Virus record (IMG/VR): IMGVR_UViG_3300007775_000015
Location: 1 to 40,903 of that record
Reading direction: 5' to 3' (one strand)
Length of the DNA stretch: 40,903 nt
Source: a virus
Shown here piece after piece: positions 1-27,589 of the stretch. The notes below the pieces were generated by a model. It was not told the origin of the DNA and searched no databases. It was given only the letters and a program-made list of their open reading frames with translations. The position numbers were made by a program, and so were the translations under genes. The number at the start of each line of letters is the position of its first letter. Within the stretch, counting starts at the first letter, position 1.

Positions 1-123
1 AAAGAACAACAAATGGATTCTCTTAACTGCAACACCAGGAGATATTTGGATGGACTACTTGCCGGTCTTCATAGCCAATGGTTTTTTCAAGAACAAAACA
101 GAGTTCACTAGAAAGCATGTTGT
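1..123. repeat. Terminal direct repeat, left copy
   Basis: These 123 bases are identical to the last 123 bases of the window (40781-40903). The overlap falls inside a helicase gene and joins its two halves in the same frame. That is what a circular or circularly permuted genome gives when it is linearised by assembly. A true short packaged terminal repeat is possible but less likely, because the repeat lies mid-gene with nothing packaging-like around it. Confidence 0.97.
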
Positions 124-820
124 GTTCAATTCTTTCACCACCTTCCCAAAGATAGAAAGATACATTGATACAGGAAAACTAGAGACATTACGACGGAGCA
201 TTCTCGTGAAAATGGATTATAAAAAACACACAGTAAATCACATGTCTATAATCACGGTTCCTTTTGATGAAAAAACCTATACAGAAGTTAAAGCGAAATT
301 GTGGAATCCATATAAAAATCGTCCACTAAAAGGTGCAGGAGAGTTGGGATATACTTTACGCCGTATCGTTAACAGTGATCCGTCACGAATTAAGGAGATT
401 AAAAAACTATTAAAAAAACACAAAAAACTAATTGTGTTTTACAATTTCGACTATGAGCTTGATATTTTGAGAACTCTTGGAGATGATTTAGATATTCCAG
501 TTTCTGAATACAATGGTCATTTACACGAACCAGTTCCAGAAGGACAAAGCTGGATATACTTAGCACAATATTTATCTGCTGGAGAAGCGTGGAATTGTAT
601 AACAACAAACGCGGTTGTGTTATATTCTAGAAACTATTCATACAAACAGACAATACAAGCAATGGGCAGAATAGATAGGAAAAATACACCATTTTATAAT
701 CTGTTTTATTTCTTTATATCATCAAAAGCTGATATAGATATTGGAATAGCAAAAGCATATTCGAAGAAAAAGAATTTCAATGAGTATAATTTTTTATCGC
801 GCGAAAAACATACTATATAA
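1..820 (+). CDS. SF2 DNA helicase, C-terminal part (continues from 40371)
   Basis: This is the 3' part of a superfamily 2 helicase whose 5' part is at the other end of the window. The reading frame is open from base 2. It begins inside motif III (LTATP, residues 145-149 of the joined protein). The second RecA-like domain follows and ends with motif VI, QAMGRIDR (residues 356-363), with the Q..GR..R pattern that binds ATP. The joined protein is 409 residues. It lies between an SSB-like gene and two nuclease genes, so a role in replication fork or recombination unwinding is inferred. The strand polarity and partner cannot be read from sequence. Confidence 0.88.
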   Translation, partial: KNNKWILLTATPGDIWMDYLPVFIANGFFKNKTEFTRKHVVFNSFTTFPKIERYIDTGKLETLRRSILVKMDYKKHTVNHMSIITVPFDEKTYTEVKAKLWNPYKNRPLKGAGELGYTLRRIVNSDPSRIKEIKKLLKKHKKLIVFYNFDYELDILRTLGDDLDIPVSEYNGHLHEPVPEGQSWIYLAQYLSAGEAWNCITTNAVVLYSRNYSYKQTIQAMGRIDRKNTPFYNLFYFFISSKADIDIGIAKAYSKKKNFNEYNFLSREKHTI

Positions 821-823
821 TAG

Positions 824-886
824 AGAGAGAGGATTTCTTTTTGGATAATTATAGATTTCGAAAGGATTTCCCTCTCTTTGTTTTTT
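824..886 (+). terminator. Possible intrinsic terminator after the helicase gene
   Basis: AGAGAGG at 826-832 can pair with CCTCTCT at 871-877 across a loop of about 38 nt, and a T-rich run (878-886) follows. The loop is long, so this is only a moderate terminator candidate. It is the one gap between the helicase and the nuclease genes. Confidence 0.4.
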
Positions 887-909
887 GCCTCTAAAAGGAG
901 AAAACCACA

Positions 910-1209
910 ATGGCAGCAGAAAGCAAATTTGAAAGACATCTTACATTACAACTGGAACGTAGATTTCCAGGTGCAATTGTTTTAAAAAACAATGCCGGAT
1001 TGATCCAGGGTTTTCCGGATAGACTTATTTTATTTGAGTCTTGGTGGGCCGCGTTTGAGGTAAAACCCTCGCCAACAGCTAGCCACAGACCAAATCAGGA
1101 TTATTATATTGATCTACTAAATCGAATGAGTTATGCGAATTTCGTATATCCACAGAATGAAGAGGAATTCTATCATGATCTTCAACAGACATTCAGAACT
1201 AGTAGGTAA
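910..1209 (+). CDS. VRR-NUC domain nuclease
   Basis: A 99-residue stand-alone VRR-NUC domain of the PD-(D/E)XK nuclease superfamily. The pattern runs KNNAG, GFPDRLIL (D37), WAAFEVK (E50, K52) and then NQ in the following helix. These give the P-D...ExK active site. VRR-NUC proteins in phages are thought to act as structure-specific or Holliday-junction-type nucleases; here that is an inference from family and from the helicase and RecB-like neighbours. AAAAGGAG stands 10 nt before the ATG. The end overlaps the next gene by 35 bp. Confidence 0.85.
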   Translation: MAAESKFERHLTLQLERRFPGAIVLKNNAGLIQGFPDRLILFESWWAAFEVKPSPTASHRPNQDYYIDLLNRMSYANFVYPQNEEEFYHDLQQTFRTSR

Positions 1210-1735
1210 TCACGCATTCCTTGGAGCATCGAAATATCACTGGACAAACTATACGGATGAAAAAGTAACGTCAGCATATTTAAGGTTCTTAGCAGTTCAA
1301 AAAGGAACAGAGTTGCATGATTTCGCCAGTAGATGCGTTGTTTTAAAACAAAAACTCCCTCGAAATAAGAAGTCATTAAATGCGTTTGTTAATGATGCAA
1401 TAGGGTATAGGATGAAATCGGAACAACCGCTTTTTTATTCTATTAATTCATTTGGAACAGCAGATGCGATTTCTTTTAGAGATGGTTTATTAAGAATACA
1501 CGATTTAAAAACCGGCGTCACACCAGCATCTTTAAGACAAACAGAAGTATATGCTGCGTTGTTTTGTTTGGAGTACGATATAAACCCAAAAGATATTTCA
1601 ATGGAACTGCGAATATATCAGTCGGATGAGGTATTAATTCATAATCCAGATCCAAACGATATTCTTCAGATAATGAATAAGATTATTGCGTTTGATCAGA
1701 AGATAGAGCAATTAAAACACGAAATGGAGGATTAA
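1175..1735 (+). CDS. RecB/Cas4-fold PD-(D/E)XK exonuclease-like protein
   Basis: A 186-residue protein with the ordered motifs of the RecB/Cas4 nuclease fold: GTELHDF (H49), GTADAIS (D97), IHDLKTG (D110, K112) and QTEVYAALF (Q122, Y126). Such phage enzymes usually process DNA ends in replication or recombination. No iron-sulphur cysteine cluster is seen. I chose the ATG at 1175 over an earlier in-frame ATG at 1133. It follows AGAGGA at 1161-1166, and the upstream extension would lie deep inside the VRR-NUC gene. The 35-bp overlap with that gene suggests coupled translation of two nucleases. Confidence 0.75.
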   Translation: MIFNRHSELVGNHAFLGASKYHWTNYTDEKVTSAYLRFLAVQKGTELHDFASRCVVLKQKLPRNKKSLNAFVNDAIGYRMKSEQPLFYSINSFGTADAISFRDGLLRIHDLKTGVTPASLRQTEVYAALFCLEYDINPKDISMELRIYQSDEVLIHNPDPNDILQIMNKIIAFDQKIEQLKHEMED

Positions 1736-1739
1736 TCTC

Positions 1740-4478
1740 ATGGCACAGCATTTTGTGATAAGTGATGATGAACTAGTTCATTATGGAATGCCTCGACGGT
1801 CTGGTAGATATCCTTGGGGATCAGGAAACAATCCAGAACAAAGAGGAAAAAGTTTTCTCGGTTATGTAGATGAATTAAAAGCAAAAGGCCTATCTGAAAA
1901 AGAAATAGCAGAGGGCCTTGGTATGTCGACTACAGAATTGAGAACAAGAAAAACAATAGCGAATGCTGAAAGAAGACTTGCCGATCAGCAAATGGCACAA
2001 AGATTAAAAGCAAAAGGCTTATCAAATGTAGCTATCGGTGAAAGAATGGGAAAAAACGAATCGTCTATTCGTGCACTTTTAGATCCACAATTGCAAGTAA
2101 ATGCCAATATTGTATCTGAAACTGCTAACATGTTAAAAAAGCAAGTTGGAGATAAGGGGATGATAGATATTGGTGGTGGAGTAGAAAGCAATTTAGGAAT
2201 AAGCAGAACAAAACTAAATGTAGCTGCATCATTGCTAGAAGACGAAGGGTATGGCGTTCACAAGGTAAAAGTAGAGCAACTGGGTACTGGAAAGTTCACA
2301 ACAATAAAGGTTTTAACTCCGCCAGGAATGACATATGCCGAAATTTACAAGAACATAGATAACATTAAAACCATAACCGAATACTCAGAAGATGGTGGAA
2401 GATCATTTTTAGGATTGGAACCCATACGAAGTGTCGATGGAAAAAGAGTTTTGATTCGTTATGGTGATGAGGGCGGAGAAGATAAAGATGGTGTCGTTGA
2501 ACTTAGACGCGGCGTAGATGATATTTCCTTAGGAGAAGCAAGATACGCACAAGTTCGTATTGGTGTGGATGGAACGCATTACCTAAAAGGAATGGCCATA
2601 TATACAGATACTTTACCAAAAGGCATAGATCTAATATATAACACAAACAAACCAAAAGGAACCCCTCCAGAAGATGTTTTCAAAAAAATGACAGATGATC
2701 CAGACAATCCATTTGGATCGGTTGTTAGACAACAACATCATATTACAGAAGAGGGAAAGACCCATCCAAAGGCAAAGCAAATGCTTGAAATGAAACAAGC
2801 CGGTGTTGACTATAAAGATATTGCTGAAAGATTGGGCGTTCCAGAATCACAGGTAAGAAAATCTATAGCAGTAAAAGCACTTAATATAGTAAACGAAGAA
2901 GGAGATTGGACTACCTGGTCAAAAAGTATATCCTCACAAGTGTTATCAAAACAATCACCAGCCTTAGCAAAGAAACAGTTAGATTTGGACAGAAACCTTA
3001 AATTAGAAGAGTTTAATGAGATTTCTGCTTTAACCAATCCTGTTGTAAAAAAAGCTTTGTTAAATGCATACGCGAATAGTCTTGATAGTGCTGTTGTTGA
3101 TTTAAAAGCCGCCGCCCTTCCAAGACAAGCAAACAAAGTTCTATTACCAATAACGTCATTAAAAGAAAACGAAATATATGCTCCATCATTTAAGAATGGA
3201 GAAACTGTTGCTTTGATTAGACACCCACATGGTGGAACGTTTGAAATACCAGAACTTAGGGTGAATAATAAGAACAGAGAAGCGAACAGTTTAATACATG
3301 ATGCACTAGACGCAGTTGGAATTCACCCAAGTGTAACAAAGAAGTTGTCTGGTGCAGACTTTGATGGTGATACTGTTTTGGTTATACCGAACAAAAGAAA
3401 AGACATTAAATCCTCTCCAGCATTAAAAGAAATCGAAAACTTCGATCCAAAGAGTTACCACGTTGACGGGTTGCCACCAATGAGCAACCGATCAAAGCAA
3501 ACTCAAATGGGTAATGTGTCAAACTTAATAACAGACATGACAATTAAAGGGGCATCTGTTGGAGAGATAGCAAGAGCAGTGAAGCACTCAATGGTGGTTA
3601 TCGATGCACAGAAACACGGTCTTGATTACAAACAATCGGCCATAGATAATGGGATAGCAGAACTGAAAGCTAAGTATCAAGGTGGAAAGAACTCTGGTGC
3701 TTCAACTCTCATCTCAAAAGCATCGTCCGAGATTCGAGTAAACGAAAGAAAAGACAACTATAAAATAGATCCGAATAGTGGAAAGAAGATTTATACTGAA
3801 ACCGGAACAACGTATCTCAATTCCAAAGGAAAGGTCATAACTAAGAAGACCAAAAGCACCAAGATAGCAGAAGTAGAAGATGCGCATAAGCTGTCCTCTG
3901 GAACAAAGATCGAGACTGTGTATGCGGAGTATGCTAACAATCTAAAGGCTCTTGCCAATAAAGCAAGAAAGCTTATGGTACACACACCAAACTTAGTGTA
4001 CTCACCAACAGCTAAGCATGTCTATAGTAAGGAAGTTAAGAGTCTTCAATTTAAACTAAAGGAAGCTAACAAGAACCGTCCCCGAGAAAGGCAGGCACAA
4101 CTCCTTGCCAATAAAATTGTTAGAGCTAAGAAGGATGCGAATCCTAATATGGATGGGGGAGATCTAAAAAAGATTAAGGGGCAGGCCTTAGAAGAAGCCC
4201 GTCGTAGAGTTGGGGCCAAGAAAAAAGACATTACAATAACGGACAAAGAATGGCAAGCCATCCAACTGGGTGCTATTAGTAACAATACCCTAGCCCAAAT
4301 AATTCAAAACACCAAGCTAGAGTCAGTAAAACAAAAAGCAACACCCAGGACAGCATATAAAATGACTGACGCCAAGACAGCTAGAGCCAAAGCAATGGCG
4401 GCATCTGGCTATACAACGTCCGAAATAGCTAGTGCACTTGGTGTATCAACAACAACTATTCAGACCACAATTAAGTAA
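1740..4478 (+). CDS. Single-chain RNA polymerase-like protein (DFDGD motif) with four HTH segments
   Basis: A 912-residue protein. Its core holds SGADFDGDTVLVIP at residues 537-550 (D540, D542, D544). This is the metal-binding motif of the beta' double-psi barrel in cellular RNA polymerases and of single-chain YonO-type phage polymerases. Just before it is VALIRHPHGGTFEIPEL (490-506), matching the barrel strand that precedes DFDGD in beta'. A second possible barrel with lysines is at about 268-306 (HYLKGMA, NTNKPKG). Four helix-turn-helix-like segments of the K..G.s..eIAe.LG.s type lie at about 46-70, 89-113, 351-377 and 885-912. The N-terminus, LVHYGMPRRSGRYPWGSG (12-29), resembles a tag on the head-cluster protein at 6572. 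I infer DNA-dependent RNA polymerase activity; a DNA-binding relative without catalysis remains possible. The ribosome binding site TGGAGG is well placed. Confidence 0.7.
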   Translation: MAQHFVISDDELVHYGMPRRSGRYPWGSGNNPEQRGKSFLGYVDELKAKGLSEKEIAEGLGMSTTELRTRKTIANAERRLADQQMAQRLKAKGLSNVAIGERMGKNESSIRALLDPQLQVNANIVSETANMLKKQVGDKGMIDIGGGVESNLGISRTKLNVAASLLEDEGYGVHKVKVEQLGTGKFTTIKVLTPPGMTYAEIYKNIDNIKTITEYSEDGGRSFLGLEPIRSVDGKRVLIRYGDEGGEDKDGVVELRRGVDDISLGEARYAQVRIGVDGTHYLKGMAIYTDTLPKGIDLIYNTNKPKGTPPEDVFKKMTDDPDNPFGSVVRQQHHITEEGKTHPKAKQMLEMKQAGVDYKDIAERLGVPESQVRKSIAVKALNIVNEEGDWTTWSKSISSQVLSKQSPALAKKQLDLDRNLKLEEFNEISALTNPVVKKALLNAYANSLDSAVVDLKAAALPRQANKVLLPITSLKENEIYAPSFKNGETVALIRHPHGGTFEIPELRVNNKNREANSLIHDALDAVGIHPSVTKKLSGADFDGDTVLVIPNKRKDIKSSPALKEIENFDPKSYHVDGLPPMSNRSKQTQMGNVSNLITDMTIKGASVGEIARAVKHSMVVIDAQKHGLDYKQSAIDNGIAELKAKYQGGKNSGASTLISKASSEIRVNERKDNYKIDPNSGKKIYTETGTTYLNSKGKVITKKTKSTKIAEVEDAHKLSSGTKIETVYAEYANNLKALANKARKLMVHTPNLVYSPTAKHVYSKEVKSLQFKLKEANKNRPRERQAQLLANKIVRAKKDANPNMDGGDLKKIKGQALEEARRRVGAKKKDITITDKEWQAIQLGAISNNTLAQIIQNTKLESVKQKATPRTAYKMTDAKTARAKAMAASGYTTSEIASALGVSTTTIQTTIK

Positions 4479-4489
4479 AGGAGGATTCT

Positions 4490-4756
4490 ATGTCGGATAC
4501 AATGATAACGACTCTTGATAACCCATACAATCCTATTACTCAGTTTAATGAATGGTATGCGTTTGATACATCAAAAGGATACAATACTTGTTCATACATA
4601 GCCAGGCTTGCTATAACATCAAACGAATTAAGCGAAGCAGACGAAGCGATTGCTATTGGTGATGCAATGAAACGTATCTTGTCTATGAATCTTACTGGAA
4701 ACTATCTAGAAGTTGATGAAGATTATGTTCCAAGAATTGAACTAGATACCAAATAG
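4490..4756 (+). CDS. Conserved-looking phage protein of unknown function
   Basis: 88 residues, acidic at the C-terminus, with no membrane segment and no motif I can assign. It begins 12 bases after the RNA polymerase-like gene with AAAGGAGG before the ATG, so it is the last gene of that operon. The segment NPYNPITQFNEWYAFD followed by a YNTCSYIARLA helix is compact and looks like a folded small domain rather than a spurious frame. The structured non-coding junction begins straight after its stop. Confidence 0.7.
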   Translation: MSDTMITTLDNPYNPITQFNEWYAFDTSKGYNTCSYIARLAITSNELSEADEAIAIGDAMKRILSMNLTGNYLEVDEDYVPRIELDTK

Positions 4757-4778
4757 ATCACATAGGTTTTATATATTG

Positions 4779-4821
4779 TGGATAGGGGGGGGTCTCTCGC
4801 GACAGGTACCCCCTCCATCCA
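4779..4821 (+). other. G-tract/C-tract hairpin
   Basis: TGGATAGGGGG (4779-4789) pairs with CCCCCT (4809-4814) and ATCCA (4817-4821), with a two-base bulge, forming an 11-bp stem. The loop is about 19 nt and includes a CGCG. It lies just past the end of the replication/transcription operon. No T-run follows, so it is not a standard terminator. It may block RNA decay or be a DNA landmark such as a packaging site. Confidence 0.5.
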
Positions 4822-4833
4822 TCGCCTGCCTCC

Positions 4834-4860
4834 TAAAAAATTCTCCGGGGGTTATATTTG
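4834..4860 (+). repeat. 27-bp dispersed repeat, copy 1 (AT block, G5 block, ATATTTG)
   Basis: TAAAAAATT, four variable bases, GGGGGT, one variable base, ATATTTG. The same element is at 24530-24556 with 23 of 27 bases identical. Each copy begins a non-coding leader at a module border: this one before the packaging/structural genes, the other before the accessory genes. Role unknown; see findings. Confidence 0.6.
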
Positions 4861-4984
4861 CAAGTACTTTCTAACGAGTTACTGAGACTTTTAATTAAAT
4901 CAGAGTTGTGGACTGATTTCTCCTTTCAAGAGCCTACCTAAAAGTGGGTTAAAGTCTCAGTAACTCCTTACAAAGTACTTGCAA
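4858..4984 (+). ncRNA. Large structured RNA element with an exposed anti-Shine-Dalgarno segment
   Basis: Arms 4858-4893 and 4949-4984 are inverted repeats matching at 33 of 36 positions. Within the 55-nt loop are a 7-bp hairpin (AAATCAG 4897-4903 with CTGATTT 4913-4919) and a 5-bp hairpin (CCTAC 4933-4937 with GTGGG 4944-4948). Between them is an unpaired linker. The segment TCTCCTTTCAAGAG (4919-4932) is the exact reverse complement of CTCTTGAAAGGAGA, the ribosome binding site in front of several accessory genes. CTCCTTTC is also identical to the anti-Shine-Dalgarno tail of Bacillota-type 16S rRNA. It could be a trans-acting RNA, a processed leader of the late operon, or an RNase III site. 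The shape is seen directly; the function is inference. Confidence 0.55.
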
Positions 4985-5011
4985 TCATATTTTAGAAAGG
5001 AGTAAACTAAC

Positions 5012-5452
5012 ATGAACACGAACAAAACTAAAGTAATAGTTTCTTTGATTCCAGATGACACGTCATGGTGTCTTCAAGATTCTCCACACATGACACTTGT
5101 TTATGTCGGTGAAATCGAGGAGGTTAAAAACTATGAACTTGGAAATTTATTTAAAGAAGTTTCCGAGCTAGCAAAAGTAACAAGACCAGTATTGGCCAAG
5201 GTAGACGGTCATGATATTTTTGGAGAAGAAGAAAAAGTGGATGTCCTAGTGATTTCGAAAGAAAAACCAATCATGGATCTTAGAAAGTCGTTATCACATT
5301 GGGACAAAAGTATATTTCCAACTTTTGAACCACACGCAACAATTGGACCTGTAGGAAGTTTTACCGGAAAAATCCCAATGTATTTACTTTTTGGAAAAAT
5401 TGAAATTATGATGGGAGATACTGTTTTACCATTTTGGTTGACGAAACAGTAG
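5012..5452 (+). CDS. 2H phosphoesterase-superfamily protein
   Basis: A 146-residue protein with the two HxT motifs that define 2H phosphoesterases (2'-5' RNA ligase-like, LigT, Acb1): SPHMTLVYVG (H26, T28) and EPHATIGPV (H108, T110). Their spacing of about 82 residues fits the bilobal fold. Members act on 2',3'- or 3',5'-cyclic phosphodiesters of RNA ends or cyclic oligonucleotides. It is the first gene after the non-coding junction and has AGAAAGGAG upstream. In phages, one 2H group (Acb1) cleaves CBASS signal nucleotides; whether this protein does so cannot be told from sequence. Head-gene-linked RNA repair is the alternative. Confidence 0.75.
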   Translation: MNTNKTKVIVSLIPDDTSWCLQDSPHMTLVYVGEIEEVKNYELGNLFKEVSELAKVTRPVLAKVDGHDIFGEEEKVDVLVISKEKPIMDLRKSLSHWDKSIFPTFEPHATIGPVGSFTGKIPMYLLFGKIEIMMGDTVLPFWLTKQ

Positions 5453-5464
5453 GAGGTAAAACAA

Positions 5465-5791
5465 ATGAAAAATTCCACAGGAACCAAAATAGAAAAAAGA
5501 AAACAGGCTCCTGGGATAACTATTCAATCAAGGGAGAATCAGATAATTCGTTTGGCATATGATTTGGTTGAAAAGAGAATTCGAGATGGAACGGCCACGT
5601 CTCAGGAGGTAACACAATTTATAAAAATGGGGTCGTCCATTGCTCAATTAGAGAAACAAAAACTATCAAACGAGAATAGATTGTTGGAAGCAAAAACAGA
5701 AGAATTAGCTTCTAGAAAGAAGATCGAAGAACTCTATGCAAACGCAATAAGACAAATGGCAATTTATCAGGGAAAAGAGGAAAGTGAATAA
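5465..5791 (+). CDS. Terminase small subunit-like protein
   Basis: 108 residues, largely helical and charged. The core helix IIRLAYDLVEKRIRDGTATSQ is followed by a coiled-coil-like stretch LEKQKLSNENRLLEAKTEE. It stands just before an HNH gene, a connector and the large terminase, the usual place of the small terminase in HNH-associated packaging clusters. The family assignment rests on that context and the helical pattern. The stop overlaps the next start (TAATG). AGGAGG lies 9 bases before the ATG. Confidence 0.65.
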   Translation: MKNSTGTKIEKRKQAPGITIQSRENQIIRLAYDLVEKRIRDGTATSQEVTQFIKMGSSIAQLEKQKLSNENRLLEAKTEELASRKKIEELYANAIRQMAIYQGKEESE

Positions 5792-6207
5792 TGCCTGATA
5801 AAGTTAGAACCTACTCAGAACTCGTAGAAAGATCGACCCTTGAATCTAGATATGAGTATTTAAAATTGTCTGGAGTTGTTGGAAAAACCACATTTGGTTG
5901 GGATAGACATTTCAATCAGAAATTTTACAAATCTCCAGAGTGGCTTAGAATTCGAGACATTGTGATTATTAGAGACGAAGGCTGTGATCTTGGGGTCATG
6001 GGTTTTGAGATTGCCGACAAGGTTTTAATTCACCACATGAATCCCATGTGGATGGGCGATCTTAGATCTGGAAATCCAGATATTTTAGATCCTGAATTTT
6101 TAATTTGCACATCTCACAGGACACATCAAGCAATACACTATGGCGATAAATCATTACTTCCACAAATCTTTATAGAAAGAAAACCAGGAGACACAAAACT
6201 TTGGTAG
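5791..6207 (+). CDS. HNH endonuclease of the packaging cluster
   Basis: 138 residues with an HNH-like core: GCDLGVMGFEIADKVLIHHM (about residues 65-84) with the paired histidines, then a NPD segment, then LICTSHRTHQAIHYG with the last histidines. The zinc-knuckle cysteines usual in many HNH proteins are only partly present. HNH proteins beside terminase genes are known to help terminase cut DNA at cos sites in several HK97-type phages. Start overlaps the small terminase stop by one base (TAATG), so translation is coupled. Confidence 0.8.
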   Translation: MPDKVRTYSELVERSTLESRYEYLKLSGVVGKTTFGWDRHFNQKFYKSPEWLRIRDIVIIRDEGCDLGVMGFEIADKVLIHHMNPMWMGDLRSGNPDILDPEFLICTSHRTHQAIHYGDKSLLPQIFIERKPGDTKLW

Positions 6208-6219
6208 AGGACAATTAAA

Positions 6220-6558
6220 ATGTTACCTAGTATTTTAGACACGATCAAGGCAATGCTCGGAATTAACGACTCTGCTTTTGACGAAGACATAACCGTTAAT
6301 ATAAATTCGGCATTTATGAATCTCAATCAACTTGGCGTCGGTCCAGAAACAGTATTCTCTATTGAAGATGATACCGAGGTCTGGACAGATTTTCTTGATG
6401 TTGATTTGGAAAAGTATCAGGCAGTTAAAACTTACATTTATATTTATGTAAAACTTGCTTTTGATCCACCATCAGCGTCATTTATTTTAAGTGCTCTGGA
6501 AAACCAAAAGAGAGAATTAGAATGGAGACTATCCGTTCAGGTTCCGATCGAAGCATAG
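6220..6558 (+). CDS. Head-tail connector (HK97 gp6-like)
   Basis: 112 residues with the pattern of phage head-tail connector proteins: an N-terminal helix ILDTIKAMLGI, INSAFMNLNQLGVGP, then VWTDFL and a helix pair ending VKLAFDPPSASFILSALE. The family forms a ring below the portal. It sits ahead of the large terminase rather than after the capsid gene, an order I associate with many Bacillota siphophages. The start follows the HNH stop by 12 bases. Confidence 0.7.
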   Translation: MLPSILDTIKAMLGINDSAFDEDITVNINSAFMNLNQLGVGPETVFSIEDDTEVWTDFLDVDLEKYQAVKTYIYIYVKLAFDPPSASFILSALENQKRELEWRLSVQVPIEA

Positions 6559-6571
6559 GAAGGACGTTATC

Positions 6572-6913
6572 ATGAAAAACAACACTCTCGTACATTTCGG
6601 AATTCCCGGTATGCATTGGGGCGTAAGAAAAAATTCATCTGGTAGTTCGAGGGGTAGTTCAGATCATAGAGCTGTTTCGTCACTTAGAAAGAAGAAAGTT
6701 AGTGATCTATCCAATGATGAACTAAAAAAACTCACTACGCGATTGAATTTGGAAACACAATATAAAAACCTAACAAAGGCAAACGTTTCCTCGGGTCAAA
6801 AATTTATAGCAGAAGTTCTTCAGGGTGCAGGAAAGTCGTTGGCGTCTAAGTATGTTGCGACCACAGCAGAAAAGTACGGCGCAGAATTATTGGCAACTTT
6901 AAAAAAGAAATGA
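6572..6913 (+). CDS. Small head-cluster protein with HFGIPGMHWGVRK tag
   Basis: 113 residues. Residues 6-19 read LVHFGIPGMHWGVR, a short motif seen at the N-termini of assorted phage proteins encoded in head clusters; its role is not known to me. A Ser/Gly-rich linker follows, then a basic helical region with LSNDELKKLTTRLNLETQYK. The RNA polymerase-like protein at 1740 starts with a similar LVHYGMP tag. Probable virion or scaffold-related protein, by context only. Confidence 0.65.
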   Translation: MKNNTLVHFGIPGMHWGVRKNSSGSSRGSSDHRAVSSLRKKKVSDLSNDELKKLTTRLNLETQYKNLTKANVSSGQKFIAEVLQGAGKSLASKYVATTAEKYGAELLATLKKK

Positions 6914-6920
6914 CGCAACG

Positions 6921-8666
6921 ATGACCCTATCAAATACCGCAACCCCAAAGTATTATGGTGAGTTTCGCGAAAAAGTCATCTCTGGAGAAATTCCAGTATG
7001 CCACGAAGTGTCGATGGAAATGAATAGAATCGATGCTTTAATTGAAAACCCAGGCATATTTTATGACGATAAAGCCATAGATGGTTTTATAGCATTTTGT
7101 GAAACTGAATGCTGTTTGACTGATGGTGAAGAACTCCACCTTCTTGATACTTTTAAACTTTGGGCGGAGCAGGTCTTTGGTTGGTACTATTATGTAGAAA
7201 GAAGCGTATACGTCCCGAATGAAGGAGATCATGGTGGTCGATATGAGAAAAGACGGATAAAAAAGAGACTAGTAAACAAGCAATACCTAATAGTAGCTCG
7301 AGGTGCTGCAAAGTCAATGTACTTATCACTTATACAGAATTATTTTCTTAATGTCGATACATCAACCACACATCAAATAGCCACAGCACCAACGATGAAA
7401 CAGGCAGAAGAGGTGATGTCACCAATAAAAACTGCCATAACAAGAGCGCGTGGCGCACTATTTAAATTCTTAACCGAAGGTTCTATAAACAACACGACAG
7501 GATCAAAAGCAAATCGGGTTAAGTTGGCCTCAACAAAACGAGGAATCGAAAACTTTTTAACTGGTTCTCTTTTAGAAGTTAGGCCGATGTCCATTAACAA
7601 GTTACAAGGACTAAGACCAAAAATTTCTGCTGTTGACGAATGGCTTTCTGGCGATGTTAGAGAGGATGTCATTGGGGCAATAGAACAAGGAGCATCAAAA
7701 CTCGACGACTATCTAATTATTGCAGTTAGTTCGGAGGGTACAGTTCGTAATAGTAGTGGCGATACAATAAAGATGGAACTTCTCGATATTTTAAAGGGCG
7801 ACTACATAAATCCGCACGTTTCTATTTGGCACTATCGCCTAGACGATATAGAAGAAGTTAATGATCCTGATACTTGGCTAAAAGCCAACCCTAATTTAGG
7901 AAAGACAGTCACATATGAGACATATCAATTAGATGTTGAACGTGCTGAAAATGCACCAGCAACTCGAAATGATATTTTAGCTAAGAGATTTGGAATTCCT
8001 ATGGAGGGTTATACCTATTTCTTCACCTACGAAGAGACAATACCCCATAGAAAGAGAGATTATTGGGGTCTTACTTGTGCACTTGGTCTTGATCTATCTC
8101 AAGGCGACGACTTTTGTGCATTCGACTTTCTCTTCCCACTTCCTCGTGGTGGTTTTGGTGTTAAAGTACGATCTTATATTTCAGAAAAAACTTTAATGAA
8201 ACTTCCTGGTGCCATGAGAGTTAAATACGAGGATTTTCTCAATGAAGGAACGCTTCAGGTTATGAATGGAACAGTTCTTGATATGATGGAGGTATATGAT
8301 GATGTAGAAGCACATATTTTAGATAAACAATATGATGTTCGAGCATTAGGTTATGATCCATATAATGCCAAAGAATTTATAGAACGTTGGGAACGCGAAA
8401 ACGGACCATATTCTATAGAGAAGGTAATACAAGGCGTTAAGTCGGAGTCTGTTCCATTAGGCGAGATAAAGAAATTATCAGAAGACGGTCTAATTGAATT
8501 TGATGAGGAACTATTATCATTTTCAATGGGAAATTGTATCACTTTAGAAGACACAAATGGAAATAGAAAACTATTAAAAAAACGATACGAACAAAAGATA
8601 GACAATGTTGCCGCAATGCTTGATGCATATATAGCATACAAAGCAAATAAGGAATCATTTGAATAG
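6921..8666 (+). CDS. terL: Terminase large subunit
   Basis: 581 residues. The ATPase half has a Walker A-type VARGAAKS (125-132), an adenine/coupling region around TAPTMKQAEE (155-164), and Walker B ISAVDE with D239 and E240. The nuclease half begins at about GLDLSQGDDFCAFDF (389-403; D391 as the first metal ligand), and later acidic residues near RALGYDPY fit the RNase H-like fold. This motor cuts and pumps DNA into the prohead with the small terminase and HNH protein. There is no good ribosome binding site before 6921. The gene starts 7 bases after the previous stop, so re-initiation is likely. Confidence 0.95.
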   Translation: MTLSNTATPKYYGEFREKVISGEIPVCHEVSMEMNRIDALIENPGIFYDDKAIDGFIAFCETECCLTDGEELHLLDTFKLWAEQVFGWYYYVERSVYVPNEGDHGGRYEKRRIKKRLVNKQYLIVARGAAKSMYLSLIQNYFLNVDTSTTHQIATAPTMKQAEEVMSPIKTAITRARGALFKFLTEGSINNTTGSKANRVKLASTKRGIENFLTGSLLEVRPMSINKLQGLRPKISAVDEWLSGDVREDVIGAIEQGASKLDDYLIIAVSSEGTVRNSSGDTIKMELLDILKGDYINPHVSIWHYRLDDIEEVNDPDTWLKANPNLGKTVTYETYQLDVERAENAPATRNDILAKRFGIPMEGYTYFFTYEETIPHRKRDYWGLTCALGLDLSQGDDFCAFDFLFPLPRGGFGVKVRSYISEKTLMKLPGAMRVKYEDFLNEGTLQVMNGTVLDMMEVYDDVEAHILDKQYDVRALGYDPYNAKEFIERWERENGPYSIEKVIQGVKSESVPLGEIKKLSEDGLIEFDEELLSFSMGNCITLEDTNGNRKLLKKRYEQKIDNVAAMLDAYIAYKANKESFE

Positions 8667-8699
8667 GTGATACATAAATCCCAAATAAGGAGGCCCCAT

Positions 8700-9998
8700 G
8701 TGAACAACAGTTTTATAACAGGTAGCGCAACACTTTTTAAACGATTAAGATCTGCCTGGAACATATTTCTAGATAGAAGTCCATATGAAGAACTTAAGAC
8801 AATTCATGGATCGGCATACAGTACTCCTCCTCACAGGAAGTATTTACAATATGGTAATGAACGATCGATTGTTGGGGCTATATATAATCGAGTAGCCATA
8901 GATATTTCAGAGTTAGACATGAGACACGTTCGATTAGATGCTGAGAAGAAGTTTTTAGAGACAATAAACTCTAATCTCAACTTATGTCTGACTAGTGAGG
9001 CAAACATAGATCAAACGAATAGAGCATTCATGCAGGACGTGGTTATGTCCATGTTTGATGAGGGCGTTGTCGCATTGGTACCAGTGGATACATCCATTAG
9101 TTTAGATAATAACAATTCGTTTGACATACTGACCATGAGAACTGGAAAAATTGTACAGTGGTATCCACACCACGTTCGTGTAAGACTGTACAACGATAAC
9201 ACCGGTTTAAAAGAAGAAGTAACACTTCATAAGACAAAAGTGGCAATAATCGAAAATCCACTTTATGCAATAATGAATGAGAAGAATTCAATTCTTCAAA
9301 GACTAATAGCCAAATTAAATCTTTTGGACGCCATTGACAATCAGAGTGGATCTGGAAAATTAGATTTAATAATTCAACTTCCATATGTTGTTAAATCAAA
9401 GCAAAGAAAAGAACAAGCGGAAGCCAGAAGACAAGATTTGGAAGATCAACTTAAAGATTCTAAGTATGGTGTAGCCTATGCTGATGGAACCGAAAAAGTA
9501 GTCCAACTAAATAGACCAGCCGAGAACAATTTAATGGCGCAAATTGAGTATTTAACGAGAATGGCATATGCCCAGTTAGGTATCAGTGAAGCAATATTGG
9601 ATGGTACGGCCGAAGAGAACGAATTGATTAACTATTATAACCGCACAGTGAAACCAATAGCTAAAGCTATTACTGGTGAAATGACAAGGAAGTTTCTTAC
9701 AAAGACAGCCCAAACACAAGGTCAGGCCGTTGTACATTTCAGAGATCTATTTGCAATTGTAACTCCTGAAAGATTAGCGGAACTTTCTGATAAACTTACA
9801 CGTAATGAAATTGCATCACCAAATGACTTGCGAGCTGTAATTGGTTGGACACCAAGTAAGGATAAAAAGGCGGATGAACTTCGCAATAGAAACATTAATC
9901 AAGCTACGGATCAACAGGCTACAGATCCAGCCGCAACACAAGAATCTATGAACGTAACCAATGAATTTAATTCGGTTACAAAGAAAAAAGGAGAATAA
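8700..9998 (+). CDS. Portal protein
   Basis: 432 residues from a GTG start. Phage portal pattern: an early YGNERSIVGAIYNRVAIDISELDMRHV segment (crown/wing region), a helical clip region with basic and acidic helices (about KSKQRKEQAEARRQDLEDQ), the AQLGISEAILDGTAEENELINYY helix typical of HK97-type portals, and a polar C-terminal tail. I chose GTG at 8700 because AAGGAGG (8687-8693) stands 6 bases upstream. An earlier in-frame GTG at 8667 lacks such a site. It is the dodecameric DNA channel at the capsid vertex. Confidence 0.92.
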   Translation: MNNSFITGSATLFKRLRSAWNIFLDRSPYEELKTIHGSAYSTPPHRKYLQYGNERSIVGAIYNRVAIDISELDMRHVRLDAEKKFLETINSNLNLCLTSEANIDQTNRAFMQDVVMSMFDEGVVALVPVDTSISLDNNNSFDILTMRTGKIVQWYPHHVRVRLYNDNTGLKEEVTLHKTKVAIIENPLYAIMNEKNSILQRLIAKLNLLDAIDNQSGSGKLDLIIQLPYVVKSKQRKEQAEARRQDLEDQLKDSKYGVAYADGTEKVVQLNRPAENNLMAQIEYLTRMAYAQLGISEAILDGTAEENELINYYNRTVKPIAKAITGEMTRKFLTKTAQTQGQAVVHFRDLFAIVTPERLAELSDKLTRNEIASPNDLRAVIGWTPSKDKKADELRNRNINQATDQQATDPAATQESMNVTNEFNSVTKKKGE

Positions 9999-10000
9999 AG

Positions 10001-11734
10001 ATGGCAAGAGAAAAAGGTACGTTTGATTTTAGTGGTTTCGCCACTAAGTACAATACTCTCTGCTCTGATGGCCGCACTATTGCTCCCGGTGCCTTTAAAC
10101 ATCATGATGGTCTAAAGGTTCCGTTGGTATGGCAGCACCTACACACAGATCCAAATAATGTTCTTGGATATGCAGTGTTAGAGCACAGGGACGAAGGCCT
10201 TTATGCTTATGGGTATCTAAACAATACTGCCGCTGGCATTCAGGCAAAAGCGCTTCTTGAACATAAAGATATTACAGCAATGTCAATATTTGCAAATCAA
10301 TTAGTGCAGAAAAACAAGTTGGTTCACTCTGGTTCAATCAAAGAGCTTAGTCTGGTATTGGCTGGTGCTAATCCTGGCGCATTGATCGAGAACGTTACCA
10401 TTCGACATGGTGATGGTACTGAAAATGAATCGGAAGATGAGGTTATTATCTTCACCGATGCAACGCTCGACGATACAGAAAAAGATTCAACCGAAAGCGT
10501 ATCCCACGCAGATTCTGCTGATGGGGAAGAAACAGTTGATGACGTTATCAAATCGATGACCGATAGACAACAGAAAGTATTGTATGCCATTGTCGCTCAG
10601 GCTATTGCCGAATCAAAGAGTGGCGATTTATCTCAATCCGATACAGATGAAGATGATGAAACAGAAGGAGAAACCGTTATGAAAAGCAATGTATTTGAGT
10701 CTAAGGATGAAAAGGTTCGTCCTACCCTGACTCACGATCAGATGGCCGAGATCTTTGCCGATGCGCAGAAACTTGGCTCTTTGAAAGAGTCGTTCCTCGC
10801 TCATGCAGGAACCTATGGAATCGATGATATTGATTACCTATTCCCCGATGCACACCTGGTAGATGGCGAACCCTCGTTTGAAACTCGCCGAATGGGCTGG
10901 GTGTCTGGTTGGATGTCAGCAACAAAACACTCACCGTTCTCACGCCTCAAGAAAGTCTGGGCAGATCTGACCCCGGATGCTGCACGTGCAAAGGGTTATA
11001 TCACCGGAGAAGAAAAGGTTGAACAAGTGTTTGCCGTTCTTAAAAGGGTCACCACACCCACAACTGTTTATAAGAAACAGAAACTTGATCGCGACGATAT
11101 TGTCGATATTACTGACTTCAATGTCGTTACTTGGATGAAACGCGAAATGCGCTTCATGCTCGATGAAGAACTTGCTCGCGCAGCGTTGGTTGGTGATCAG
11201 CGAACATTTGGTGTAGATGATGATGCCATTGATCCATCAGCAATTCGCCCGATCTATGGTGATGTCTCACAGTTTGTTCATTATCTGACTCTTGAAGCCG
11301 CAGTGACAGACTATCTTGATATTATTGAAGCGATCCAGCTTGCTCGCGTAAATTATAAAGGTACTGGGACACCCAATCTTTATACAACAAACGCAGTTTT
11401 GACCGGTATGCTTCTGTTGAAAGATACGACAAATCGCCGCATCTACAAATCAGTTGATGAATTGGCCAACGATCTTCGTGTTGCTTCAATCATTGAAGTT
11501 GAAGTTCTGGAAGGCGTTCAGCGTGACGATGCTGCTCCATTTACTGCTGATCTTCTTGGCATTATGGTAAATCCTCACGATTACACCTATGGTGCAGACC
11601 GCGGTGGCGAAGTTAATATGTTTGACGATTTCGACATTGACTATAACCAACAGAAATACCTGATCGAAACTCGTGTTTCTGGTTCCCTCTTGAATCCCAA
11701 GAGCGCTCTGGTTATCGAACGTAAGACCGCCTAG
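10001..11734 (+). CDS. Fused prohead protease and major capsid protein
   Basis: 577 residues. Residues 1-130 form an HK97-type serine protease: VWQHLHTDP carries the likely catalytic H46 and IKELSLVLAGANPG the likely S117. Residues 140-226 are a very acidic linker. Residues 227-577 are an HK97-fold capsid protein, with the E-loop/A-domain region and a C-terminal FDDFDIDYNQQKYLIETRVSGSL typical of the family. Scaffold, protease and shell are thus translated as one chain. A strong internal ribosome binding site and in-frame ATG (10679) mark the junction. Codons change there too: AGA arginines and mixed codons give way to CGC/CGT and C-ending codons, as in highly expressed genes. Start context: AAAGGAG 8 bases upstream. 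Confidence 0.92.
   Translation: MAREKGTFDFSGFATKYNTLCSDGRTIAPGAFKHHDGLKVPLVWQHLHTDPNNVLGYAVLEHRDEGLYAYGYLNNTAAGIQAKALLEHKDITAMSIFANQLVQKNKLVHSGSIKELSLVLAGANPGALIENVTIRHGDGTENESEDEVIIFTDATLDDTEKDSTESVSHADSADGEETVDDVIKSMTDRQQKVLYAIVAQAIAESKSGDLSQSDTDEDDETEGETVMKSNVFESKDEKVRPTLTHDQMAEIFADAQKLGSLKESFLAHAGTYGIDDIDYLFPDAHLVDGEPSFETRRMGWVSGWMSATKHSPFSRLKKVWADLTPDAARAKGYITGEEKVEQVFAVLKRVTTPTTVYKKQKLDRDDIVDITDFNVVTWMKREMRFMLDEELARAALVGDQRTFGVDDDAIDPSAIRPIYGDVSQFVHYLTLEAAVTDYLDIIEAIQLARVNYKGTGTPNLYTTNAVLTGMLLLKDTTNRRIYKSVDELANDLRVASIIEVEVLEGVQRDDAAPFTADLLGIMVNPHDYTYGADRGGEVNMFDDFDIDYNQQKYLIETRVSGSLLNPKSALVIERKTA
10663..10681 (+). promoter_or_regulatory. Internal ribosome binding site and start for capsid-only product
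   Basis: AGAAGGAG (10663-10670) is followed after 8 bases by an in-frame ATG (10679-10681), residue 227 of the fused gene, exactly where capsid homology and high-expression codon use begin. This would give a 351-residue capsid protein in excess over the protease fusion. Confidence 0.6.
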
Positions 11735-11747
11735 TAGGTAGTATATA

Positions 11748-12065
11748 ATGGCAAAGTTTCACGGTTTTGTTGGGTTCTCTACATCTGTAGAGACAGCTCC
11801 AGGGGTATGGAAAGAGGAGATAACAGAGCGTGAGTATACGGGCGAATTAATACGACTTGCTCAGAATCACAACGTTAGTGAACACCTAAATGACGATGTG
11901 GTCTTGAACTCTCGGGTTAAAATAGCCGCAGATCAATTTGCCTTTACAAATTTATCCTCGATAAAGTATGCAAAATTTGACGGGGTCTCTTGGAAAGTAA
12001 CAAGCATTGAACATGAGAGACCTCGTCTTGTACTTACGTTAGGAGGCGTTTATAATGGGCACTAG
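11748..12065 (+). CDS. Head-tail joining protein (neck)
   Basis: 105 residues, mostly beta-strand in character, with FHGFVGFSTSVETAPGVW, REYTGELIR and a final SIEHERPRLVLTLGGVYNG. This pattern and its place right after the capsid gene match head-closure/stopper proteins of siphophages. Exact assignment within the neck (stopper or adaptor) is by position only. Its end overlaps the next gene by 11 bases. Confidence 0.65.
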   Translation: MAKFHGFVGFSTSVETAPGVWKEEITEREYTGELIRLAQNHNVSEHLNDDVVLNSRVKIAADQFAFTNLSSIKYAKFDGVSWKVTSIEHERPRLVLTLGGVYNGH

Positions 12066-21607: not shown

Positions 21608-22504
21608 ATGACAGTTGGTGATGTTAAACGAGGCATAACACGGCTTCCCGGGCCAATAGACGATGTTGAACAATCCGTATATGTATCACCAGTATATGAC
21701 ATAGACTACCTAGTTGCTGCTGGTGGGGGAGGCGGTGCTGCTGGTTCTGGTGGCAATCCTCCATCATATGGGGCTGGTGGAGGTGGAGGTGGTGGTCTTT
21801 TAACGGGTACTATGTCCTTAACTATAGGAGAACTATATAATGCCGTAGTTGGTGATGGAGGACTAGTAGCACAAAAAGGAGAGGACAGTTCACTAGGAAC
21901 AGTTGTTGCCGAAGGTGGTGGTAGAGGTGGTGCTAGTGGAAACACAAATTCTGCTGGATACCCCGGTGGCTCTGGCGGTGGTGGGGGAGCCATATATCCT
22001 GACGATGGAACTGGAAATCCCGGAGGTGCAGGCACCGTTGGGCAAGGTAATGATGGGGGTACTGCTGGTGAGTTATATTCTGCACCTGGTTTCTGGAATG
22101 GTGGGGGTGGAGGTGGAGCTGGAGCACAGGGTGCAAATGCTGGTTACTCCATACCAAGAGGTGCTAATGGTGGAGCTGGAGCTGTATCGAACATAACCGG
22201 AGTCAACGCTTACTATTGTGGTGGCGGTGGCGGTGGTTGTGGTGCTAATGAAGGAAATGGTGTAGGTGGCTCAGGTGGTTCTGGTGGTGGTGGAACAGGT
22301 GCTACCAACCTATTATCTGGAAAGAATGGTACAGCCAACAAAGGTGGGGGTGGTGGCGGCGGTTGCTCTGGTGGATCTGGCGTTGTTATATTAAGAATGT
22401 TGACTGAGGATTATTCTGGTTTAGTTACGGGTTCTCCTACAGTAACCGTTGACGGTGACTATACAGTTGTTAAGTTTACTGCAAACGGGTCATACACAGC
22501 ATAG
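21608..22504 (+). CDS. Glycine-rich tail adhesin, copy 1
   Basis: 298 residues. After a 35-residue leader, IDYLVAAGGGGG opens a domain dominated by poly-Gly runs split by short hydrophobic strands, then GGSGVVILRML and a C-terminal strand pair ending FTANGSYTA. Such polyglycine proteins form packed polyglycine-II helices at the tips of some phage fibres and bind receptors. The next gene is a paralogue with the same plan. There is no visible ribosome binding site; the ATG is 3 bases after the previous stop, so translation is probably coupled. Confidence 0.75.
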   Translation: MTVGDVKRGITRLPGPIDDVEQSVYVSPVYDIDYLVAAGGGGGAAGSGGNPPSYGAGGGGGGGLLTGTMSLTIGELYNAVVGDGGLVAQKGEDSSLGTVVAEGGGRGGASGNTNSAGYPGGSGGGGGAIYPDDGTGNPGGAGTVGQGNDGGTAGELYSAPGFWNGGGGGGAGAQGANAGYSIPRGANGGAGAVSNITGVNAYYCGGGGGGCGANEGNGVGGSGGSGGGGTGATNLLSGKNGTANKGGGGGGGCSGGSGVVILRMLTEDYSGLVTGSPTVTVDGDYTVVKFTANGSYTA

Positions 22505-22513
22505 GAGGACTAA

Positions 22514-23416
22514 ATGCCTGATATAAATGGTAGTGTGAGAACGAGACGCCGACCTAGAAACCCTGGGCTCGTTGATTTATTTGGTGCGTGGCTACCACCA
22601 TCAGTTGATATAGAATATTTAATAGTTGCTGGTGGTGGCGGTGGGGGTGGTGGTACTAACACGGGTGGTATAAATGGACGATCTGATGGTGGTGGCGGTG
22701 GTGGGGGCCTATTGACCGACACATTCCTAGGTTATGCTCCTGGAACTGTGTTAACTATCGGAGTTGGTAGTAAAGGCCTTGGTGGTATTGGCACTGTTGG
22801 TGGAAATGGTGGTAACAGTTATATAGATTCGCTAATCGCTTATGGTGGCGGTGGTGGGGGTATGAATAGTTCCGGAGTAGGTGGTGGTTCTGGTGGTGGG
22901 GGTGGTAATGACGGAACTAATGGTAAACCTGGTGGATCGGGCGTATCCGGCCAAGGTTACGCTGGTGGATATGGTAATAGTTTAGGACCATACGGTGGTG
23001 GGGGTGGTGGTGGAGCCGGTGGTGTTGGGGAAGCTGGCAATGGTGACGACGGTGGCGATGGAGGAACTGGTATATTATTGGTGATTACAGGAACTGCATT
23101 ATATTATGGTTCTGGTGGCGGTGGTGGTATTAAAGACTCAGCTACAGGTATTCACGGAGTTGGTGGAAATGGTATAGGTGGTAACGGAGCCGATGGTGCG
23201 GGTACTGCTGGTAATGCAGTAGCAAATAGAGGCGCTGGTGGGGGTGGCGGCGTCGGCAATACTGGTGCTAAAGGTGGTAACGGAAGCGATGGAGTTGTTA
23301 TTCTCCGACTATTGACAGAAAAATACACCGGAATAGTAACTGGTTCACCAGATGTAGCTGTTGATGGAGATTATACTGTATTAACGTACACAGCCGATGG
23401 ATCATATGAAATTTAA
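22514..23416 (+). CDS. Glycine-rich tail adhesin, copy 2
   Basis: 300 residues, paralogue of the preceding gene. Shared features are IEYLIVAGGGGGGG, poly-Gly blocks, DGVVILRLLTEKYTGIVTGS and VDGDYTVLTYTADGSYEI. Only the ends are closely alike; the glycine blocks and the loops between them differ, as expected if loops are under receptor-driven selection. The N-terminus here is basic (VRTRRRPRNPG). AGGAGG stands just before the ATG. Confidence 0.75.
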   Translation: MPDINGSVRTRRRPRNPGLVDLFGAWLPPSVDIEYLIVAGGGGGGGGTNTGGINGRSDGGGGGGGLLTDTFLGYAPGTVLTIGVGSKGLGGIGTVGGNGGNSYIDSLIAYGGGGGGMNSSGVGGGSGGGGGNDGTNGKPGGSGVSGQGYAGGYGNSLGPYGGGGGGGAGGVGEAGNGDDGGDGGTGILLVITGTALYYGSGGGGGIKDSATGIHGVGGNGIGGNGADGAGTAGNAVANRGAGGGGGVGNTGAKGGNGSDGVVILRLLTEKYTGIVTGSPDVAVDGDYTVLTYTADGSYEI

Positions 23417-24127: not shown

Positions 24128-24156
24128 TCGCACCAAATACAACTCCTATAATGAAA
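24128..24156 (+). promoter_or_regulatory. Phage promoter-like box A (TCGCA-N14-TATAAT)
   Basis: TCGCA (24128-24132), then TACAACTCC, then TATAAT (24147-24152) and GAAA. The same layout with identical spacing occurs at 24565, 24851 and 27561. From TACAACTCC onward 39 bases are identical to box D, up to and including AAGGAGA of the ribosome binding site. TATAAT is a perfect -10; no TTGACA is present at the usual distance. Confidence 0.65.
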
Positions 24157-24850: not shown

Positions 24851-24879
24851 TCGCAGGATTTACAACTCCTATAATGAAA
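24851..24879 (+). promoter_or_regulatory. Phage promoter-like box C
   Basis: TCGCA (24851-24855), TTTACAACTCC, TATAAT (24870-24875), GAAA. Identical in spacing to boxes A, B and D. Here the -10 region forms the left arm of an inverted repeat with 24930-24947. Confidence 0.65.
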
Positions 24880-26146: not shown

Positions 26147-26506
26147 ATGAACGATCCACAACAAAACCCACCTGAAGACAAAAGTTATTTGGAAGATCCG
26201 GAAGCTTTAGGAAAGAGCTTTACAAAGCTATCGAAGTCGGTTAGCGAATTAGCCAAATCGTTTGCTGTTCTTTCTTCTATATTTCCCAATCTGAATCTTG
26301 ATGCTGTACCACATAGAGTTCATAGCTCTCAATTAGGAAAGACGAGAAAAGGTGCAACCCATGTGGTCAATCCAACCTTCCTATCACGTCAAGTTCTTCC
26401 TATCTCACCCGCACAGTATCGACGGTATCACTTTGGAAATCCAAAAAAGTGGCAAACAAAACAAGCGAAAACAAACAAGAAAGTAGAAGGTCTCTATGCA
26501 AACTAA
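26147..26506 (+). CDS. Accessory protein of unknown function
   Basis: 119 residues. A polar N-terminus (QQNPPEDKSYLEDPEALG) is followed by an amphipathic helix (FTKLSKSVSELAKSFAVLSSI) and a basic, Pro/Gln-rich C-terminal half (RRYHFGNPKKWQTKQAKTNK). The basic half suggests nucleic acid or membrane-surface contact, as an inference only. AAAAAGGAG precedes the start. Overlaps the next gene by 11 bases. Confidence 0.6.
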   Translation: MNDPQQNPPEDKSYLEDPEALGKSFTKLSKSVSELAKSFAVLSSIFPNLNLDAVPHRVHSSQLGKTRKGATHVVNPTFLSRQVLPISPAQYRRYHFGNPKKWQTKQAKTNKKVEGLYAN

Positions 26507-27278
26507 TGCTATTATATCAACCACTAGACAGCTTGGGAAGAGTATTGCAAGAAACTCACCAACCATCTTAACTAGTCTGGGTGTCGTTGGTTTAATTGGA
26601 ACGGTTGTTTTAGCAGTAAAAGCAACACCGAGAGCAATGATGATCCTAGCTCAGGAAAAGATGTATAGAGACGAAGAAGTACACGATCCAAACTACGAAC
26701 TTCCTATCGAAGTAAACGACGCGATTTCTCTAACGTGGAAATGTTATATTCCAACTACAGCGATGGGTCTAATTACGATCGGATGTATCGTGGGTGCGAA
26801 TCATATTTCATTACGACGCAATGCTGCTCTGGTTAGTCTATTTTCACTTACGGAGCAGGCGCTCAAAGAATACCAAGCAAAGGTTGTAGAGCAAGTTGGA
26901 CCTGCGAAAGAGGAAAAAATCCGCGGGGAGATCGCCCAGGAAAAGCTTAACAAAAAGCCTATGGACGAAAAGACTGTTATCTTAACTGGAAAAGGATCTT
27001 TCCTATGCTTTGATTCCTTCTCGGCAAGATATTTTAGAAGCGATGCGGAAGAACTCCGCAAAGCTGAAAACATATTTAACCAAAAATTGCTAAGAGAGGG
27101 GTGGCTTGGTATCAACGAGTTCTATGATATTATTGAGCTAGATCCAATAGAACTAGGAGATGAGATGGGTTGGATTGCTGAGAGAAACTTGATGGAACTT
27201 AAGTATACAACAAAGTTAGCCTCAGACGACGAGCCATGTCTCGTTATAGAATACTACGTTAGTCCACATCATATTTAG
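26496..27278 (+). CDS. DUF6353-type membrane protein (first paralogue)
   Basis: 260 residues. Two membrane spans: TSLGVVGLIGTVVLAVKA (about 26-43) and TAMGLITIGCIVGANHISLR (about 88-107), with a helix between them and a large soluble C-terminal domain (about 125-260) with SFLCFDSFSARYFRSDAEE, LLREGWLGINEFYDII and DEMGWIAER. The same plan appears at 31712, where SARYF is matched by SIYSRFF and GLPHSPEGQLVGW by LDPIELGDEMGW. I link both to the phage family DUF6353 from memory of its pattern. The family function is unknown. Confidence 0.7.
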   Translation: MQTNAIISTTRQLGKSIARNSPTILTSLGVVGLIGTVVLAVKATPRAMMILAQEKMYRDEEVHDPNYELPIEVNDAISLTWKCYIPTTAMGLITIGCIVGANHISLRRNAALVSLFSLTEQALKEYQAKVVEQVGPAKEEKIRGEIAQEKLNKKPMDEKTVILTGKGSFLCFDSFSARYFRSDAEELRKAENIFNQKLLREGWLGINEFYDIIELDPIELGDEMGWIAERNLMELKYTTKLASDDEPCLVIEYYVSPHHI

Positions 27279-27560: not shown

Positions 27561-27589
27561 TCGCAGAATTTACAACTCCTATAATGAAA
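27561..27589 (+). promoter_or_regulatory. Phage promoter-like box D
   Basis: TCGCA (27561-27565), TTTACAACTCC, TATAAT (27580-27585), GAAA. From 27571 on, 39 bases are identical to box A including the AAGGAGA ribosome binding site, so promoter and leader were duplicated together. Confidence 0.65.

Follow-up and report, generated by a model that had tools for sequence, protein, structure and literature searches.

What does the large open reading frame (ORF) at 1740–4478 of this viral DNA encode, and does its product travel in the phage head and transcribe phage genes after injection, as an earlier note proposed? The window, meaning the whole stretch analysed, is a virus record 40,903 bases long. 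Parts of one helicase gene lie at either contig end (PHROG 62 profile positions 692–879 at the end and 839–1131 at the start), which makes a circularly permuted, near-complete genome probable. No tRNA and no match to an Rfam family were found in it.

Family, predicted fold and gene neighbourhood of the polymerase

The gene, its neighbours and the segments discussed below are as follows.

910–1735, + strand: endonuclease (910–1209) and Cas4/RecB-like exonuclease (1133–1735), directly upstream of the polymerase in most relatives
1740–4478, + strand: predicted single-chain two-barrel RNA polymerase, 912 aa, PHROG 4291 family
1857–2078, + strand: two N-terminal helix-turn-helix (HTH) segments (about residues 40–66 and 82–113), kept in the family; candidate promoter readers
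2550–2651, + strand: first-barrel motif Q271...K283...K304, in the order of QDE-1 Q736/K743/K767
2766–2867, + strand: extra HTH insertion (residues 343–376)
3219–3269, + strand: RHPHGGTFEIPELRVNN, second-barrel strand region, from residue 494
3351–3371, + strand: putative catalytic loop GADFDGD (D540, D542, D544), residues 538–544
4386–4475, + strand: C-terminal HTH (residues 883–912)
4490–4756, + strand: 88-aa ORF (PHROG 4303)

The ORF starts with ATG and is intact over 912 codons. Its product matches the PHROG 4291 profile over the full length (residues 7–911 against positions 7–905 of 909; 1247.5 bits), and by this match it is a full-length member of an already known phage family, annotated in PHROG as 'RNA-dependent RNA polymerase'. 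Searches with tblastn returned homologues from about 250 phage records (Arthrobacter 95, Gordonia 55, Streptomyces 54, Lactococcus 13, and others). Almost all of them cover the full length, identities reach 54%, and they are labelled HTH DNA-binding protein, RNA-dependent RNA polymerase or hypothetical. No assay of a family member was found. Bacterial genome assemblies contained homologues as well, in 137 stretches, many of which come from Lachnospiraceae and other Clostridia. The candidate single-chain polymerase of the earlier note thus stands, but as a family already annotated; what is new is not the protein as such, but the signs of virion carriage behind a shared short tag and a candidate three-box promoter. 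Where aligned, the proteins of the Lactococcus phage 1706 gp75 and Arthrobacter Mudcat gp94 type are homologous to the window polymerase over the full length (41–57% identity), with the same neighbours, tag and catalytic loop; the window protein has an extra internal HTH.

Gene order around the polymerase is conserved among relatives. In most complete annotated relatives the genes directly upstream encode a nuclease of VRR-Nuc or RuvC-like type and a Cas4/RecB-like exonuclease, while the Lactococcus relatives have other genes in between. In the complete annotated relatives the polymerase is followed by an ORF of about 80–105 aa, and no further large gene stands between it and the right end. 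1706, P078 and Correa have the polymerase gene at their extreme right; in the window the nuclease–polymerase block precedes the packaging genes. Between the 88-aa ORF and the structural operon, a gap of 255 bp holds a 39-nt inverted repeat (4853–4989; arms 90% complementary, 59-nt loop, adjoining G-run), possibly a cos or late-control region, whose 15-nt core was not found in the other loci. Elsewhere in the window, PHROG 2152 occurs twice in the non-structural region (26496–27278 and 31712–32677), and two adjacent tail-end proteins (21608–22504 and 22514–23416) have a common glycine-run N-terminus (DIDYLVAAGGGGG / DIEYLIVAGGGGG).

An AlphaFold model built with 61 homologues had a pLDDT of 82 for the whole protein and 90 for the core (residues 226–662). 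Foldseek comparison of this predicted core with the PDB ranked QDE-1 first (E about 4e-12), followed by maize RDR2 (2e-10), the phage nvRNAPs P32 gp64 and P74 gp62 (about 1e-8), the P23-45 vRNAP gp96 (7e-6) and then beta' subunits; the matches with E < 1e-3, for the core as for the whole model, were two-barrel RNA polymerases. TM-scores reached a moderate 0.49 of the query and rmsd was high, which is what a superposition of the barrels alone should give. Sequence searches of the PDB, with the protein or with a 21-row profile, gave chance matches to HTH and designed-repeat proteins alone, AR9 beta' appearing with E about 1.8 at the DFDGD loop.

The GADFDGD loop is preceded by an RHPHGG-type strand, as the earlier note had it. 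Residues D540, F541, D542, G543 and D544 are invariant both in a 21-row alignment (the window protein and 20 others) and in a set of 61 diverse sequences, and in the latter Q271 and K283 are invariant and K304 is at least 90% conserved. QDE-1 has invariant Q736, K743 and K767 and a catalytic aspartate loop at 1007–1011 (PMC1750930); matched by eye, the order of Q/K/K and then the aspartate triad is the same in the two proteins. In its modelled fold with two double-psi barrels, which the earlier note had expected, its DxDGD triad and its first-barrel glutamine and two lysines, the protein belongs to the two-double-psi-barrel RNA polymerase superfamily. We infer an active enzyme because the catalytic residues are conserved and the aspartate triad of YonO is required for catalysis (PMC5467207).

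Kinship with YonO and the crAss-like polymerase had also been suggested. Likeness to YonO holds at superfamily level (single chain of about 100 kDa, two barrels, aspartate triad), and the YonO sequence was not among the hits. Among the Foldseek matches, the nearest solved structures are those of QDE-1 and of the P23-45 group of phage polymerases. QDE-1 and RDR2 are eukaryotic RNA-silencing enzymes in which neither HTH nor tag was noted, whereas the window polymerase has both. Thermus phage P23-45 resembles the present case in its two-barrel gp96 vRNAP and gp64 nvRNAP and in phage-specific promoter motifs common to its relatives, which the candidate element described below would parallel; its gp96, however, is fused to the tape measure, whereas the window polymerase is free-standing with a short N-terminal tag.

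Pfam searches recovered all four HTH-like segments counted earlier (about residues 40–66, 82–113, 343–376 and 883–912). The third is specific to the window protein: it is absent from all 20 other aligned homologues and is therefore not part of the conserved machine. A short ORF of Psst1 annotated 'RNA-dependent RNA polymerase' (L012:9317-9643) and a 95-aa ORF of phage Qui (A0A5B8WIH5), a small HTH protein matching part of the polymerase model, are perhaps stand-alone copies of the polymerase HTH parts.

A shared N-terminal tag and signs of virion carriage

Two short tags, A and B, are found at the positions below.

1773–1826, + strand: tag A, LVHYGMPRRSGRYPWGSG (residues 12–29), on the polymerase; residues 1–35 are of low confidence in the model
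6572–6913, + strand: 113-aa head-cluster protein with DUF7211 tag B (LVHFGIPGMHWG, about 6587–6622)

Residues 1–35 of the polymerase are predicted to be disordered, yet they contain one of the most conserved stretches of the protein, HxG...SGRYPWGSG, with H14, G16, S21, G22, R23, G27, S28 and G29 conserved in the 21-row alignment. Because of the low model confidence here, tag A is probably an exposed peptide. A regular expression for it matched 185 of 190 full-length polymerase ORFs (some redundant); two of the remaining five are cut by contig ends and three are variants.

The protein at 6572 matches DUF7211 (PF23847; E 1.7e-8; pattern HxG[IV]xG[MQ]xWG). Its resemblance to the polymerase N-terminus, which the earlier note had pointed out, is weak in the window genome alone, where the pair DDELVHYGMP / NNTLVHFGIP ranked 10th among 1,326 gene pairs, after clear paralogues; across families, however, it is not due to chance, since HHalign aligned the tag A and tag B profiles with a probability of 91% and a score of 23.9, against at most 11.4 for 60 column-shuffled controls. 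DUF7211 was not among the 25 best Pfam families listed for the polymerase, and it matches 40 of 46 other tagged proteins, the remainder carrying tag A. By HHalign, tag A is thus a relative of DUF7211 rather than a member.

The tags are exchanged between proteins. Two viral contigs encode homologous C-terminal domains (39% identity, E 7e-23), one behind tag A (L127) and the other behind tag B (L134), and GNAT acetyltransferase domains carry either tag. Tag-B proteins include a fusion to a LigT/2'-5' RNA ligase domain with weak likeness to Acb1, and another domain on tagged proteins has a weak papain-fold toxin match. Judged by these domain matches, this is the profile of proteins that act inside the host cell. 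The tagged proteins of L127, L134, L183 and L061, which have GNAT, a Rossmann-like domain ('VFISG..GDAPGxDTAVQ') and a LigT/Acb1-like domain, are candidate injected effectors.

By genus, the phages with a tag-B protein are largely those with the polymerase (159 phage records). Of the 11 viral contigs of 50 kb or more that have a tag-B protein, 10 clearly encode the polymerase. We found no paper on the tag in the published text and read its probable function from the accompanying proteins. An analogous short N-terminal signal on packaged, injected proteins is the capsid targeting sequence of the T4 internal proteins, which differs from the tag in sequence; tag B, by comparison, can also be internal or repeated. 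It occurs twice in 1706 orf7 (L218:2501-3889) and in an IMG/VR relative (L038:7597-8463), and it is internal, as called, in L061, L070 and L183; such copies may indicate where polyproteins are joined or cleaved.

In Lactococcus phage 1706 each tag occurs on one protein: tag A on the polymerase, orf75, and tag B on orf7, whose two tags are of the same type as that of the 6572 protein. Both are labelled 'structural protein' in EU081845, where predicted functions bear the word 'putative'. The chance of finding both tagged proteins among the 11 so labelled of 76 is 0.02. The paper on this phage is said to have used mass spectrometry. Two small proteins whose genes stand in the non-structural part, orf62 and orf71, were given this label too, and the lysate may therefore have been contaminated. 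The ReqiPepy6 record repeats the annotation ('similar to Lactococcus phage 1706_gp75, structural protein'). Taken with the tag, its exchange and the promoter-like elements described below, the label gives indirect support to the earlier proposal of a packaged and injected polymerase, and virion carriage of the window polymerase is probable.

A three-box promoter-like element

A conserved element, TCGC-N5-TTACA-N5-TATAATGA, was found upstream of non-structural genes in the window and in Lactococcus and Arthrobacter relatives. The window has four copies.

24128–24156, + strand: candidate promoter copy 1, TCGC/TACA/TATAATGAAA
24565–24593, + strand: candidate promoter copy 2, diverged (TTACACACCCTATAACGAAA)
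24851–24879, + strand: candidate promoter copy 3
27561–27589, + strand: candidate promoter copy 4

A de novo search of the intergenic gaps of four genomes with different hosts returned the same kind of element in each (TCGCAGAATTTACAACTCCTATAATGAAA in the window, TCCACATGTTTTACATACACTATAGT in 1706, TTTTACATACCCTATAATGA in P078 and TCGCGTAAATTACATGGGCTATAAT in Correa). The form TTACA-N4-CTATA[AG]T matched 35 times in the 1.83 Mb of DNA examined, compared with 0–2 times for six scrambled forms. Exact copies in these four genomes all lie on the coding strand and to the right of the structural module, and no candidate promoter was found before the structural operon. Sigma-70-type promoters in window positions 1–12000 were at chance level. 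No paper on the three-box motif was found in the published text.

The long form TCGC-N4-WTTACA-N4-CTATARTRRA was present in at least 119 stretches of the viral collection, while a control with the second spacer lengthened by 2 nt had no match there. A ribosome binding site and start codon followed within 260 nt at 182 of 211 sites (median 35 nt), compared with 31 of 211 in the reverse orientation; these sites come from motif-selected contigs, which biases the conservation of TCGC among them but not the orientation result.

Among the matches listed, 44 of 76 motif contigs encode the polymerase (18/18 of those of at least 50 kb, 10/12 of 40–50 kb and 16/46 of the shorter ones). We rejected the contigs without it as evidence against a link: 8 of 32 carry a close TerL (68–78% identity), and most are short fragments. 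Six further polymerase contigs were inspected. G088 (TTGCA) and G072 (several TTACA copies) have variants with the same box spacing and G085 perhaps a looser one; no three-box motif was found in G080, G083 and G077, and the view that every member of the polymerase family has the motif was rejected. The motif may mark a lineage rather than the polymerase, and co-inheritance within a lineage is inseparable from function by this association. Successive boxes are separated by about one helical turn, a spacing that would suit recognition by a single protein whose HTH domains all sit on the same face of the DNA.

Proposed role of the polymerase and competing explanations

Our preferred reading, to which we give a probability of roughly 55%, is that the protein is a single-chain DNA-dependent two-barrel RNA polymerase that would be made late in infection, loaded into the phage head by its N-terminal HxG...SGRYPWGSG tag and injected together with the genome. 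It would then start transcription of the non-structural genes, which gene order suggests are early, at TCGC-N5-WTTACA-N5-TATAATGA, the conserved HTH segments reading the boxes on one face of the DNA. Delivery in the virion is favoured because the element stands on probably early genes and the polymerase is encoded at the far end, among recombination genes. We infer packaging and promoter reading from the tag, the 1706 label and the placement of the element.

The chief rival, which we consider doubtful, is that host polymerase reads the TATAAT box while a phage activator binds the TCGC and TTACA boxes, after the logic of T4 middle promoters, and that the phage polymerase does something else. 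This explanation is compatible with packaging, so its probability overlaps that of other readings. TATAAT is the host sigma-A –10 consensus, and the motif-bearing phages encode several HTH proteins. However, there is no –35 box at the usual distance, phages of Firmicutes and of Actinobacteria share the three boxes and their spacings, and the motif drifts with the phage (TATAGT in 11 of 11 copies in 1706, TTGCA in G088).

It is also possible, if unlikely, that the polymerase acts outside the virion, being made after infection for middle or late genes, and that the tag has another role. YonO, of similar size (~100 kDa) and likewise single-chain and two-barrelled, transcribes late genes, with no virion role reported and the promoter sequence that it reads left undetermined (PMC5467207), and the window gene lies among recombination and replication genes. 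The candidate promoters, however, stand on non-structural genes, and none was located ahead of the structural operon; the homologue in 1706 was deposited as a structural protein, and the tag is shared with head-cluster proteins.

A catalytically dead structural or DNA-binding head protein with a polymerase fold is very improbable: the SEA-PHAGES records name the homologues merely HTH DNA-binding protein and the 1706 label is structural, but the full set of catalytic residues is invariant in 61 diverse homologues. We give scarcely any credence to the function that the PHROG and RefSeq names imply, an RNA-dependent RNA polymerase, even with QDE-1 as the best fold match, given that QDE-1 structures also contain DNA templates (PDB titles), the nearest phage enzymes are DNA-dependent, the HTH segments and the DNA promoter-like element fit DNA templates, and no RNA replicon is evident.

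Extended beyond the window, our preferred reading leads to a broader one, which we put forward tentatively: in a large lineage of phages of Gram-positive bacteria, one short N-terminal address, A or B, may load both the polymerase and variable effectors, among them acetyltransferases and LigT/Acb1-like enzymes, into the head, and the phage's own polymerase may then read the three-box promoters at the start of infection. If head loading by the tag is general, it would provide a sequence-based way to find injected phage effectors. Single-chain two-barrel polymerases serve as models for the forerunner from which all cellular RNA polymerases descend. Members of the present family are found in phages of Lactococcus, Arthrobacter, Gordonia and Streptomyces that can be cultured, and in these the candidate promoter and the question of virion carriage can be tested together.
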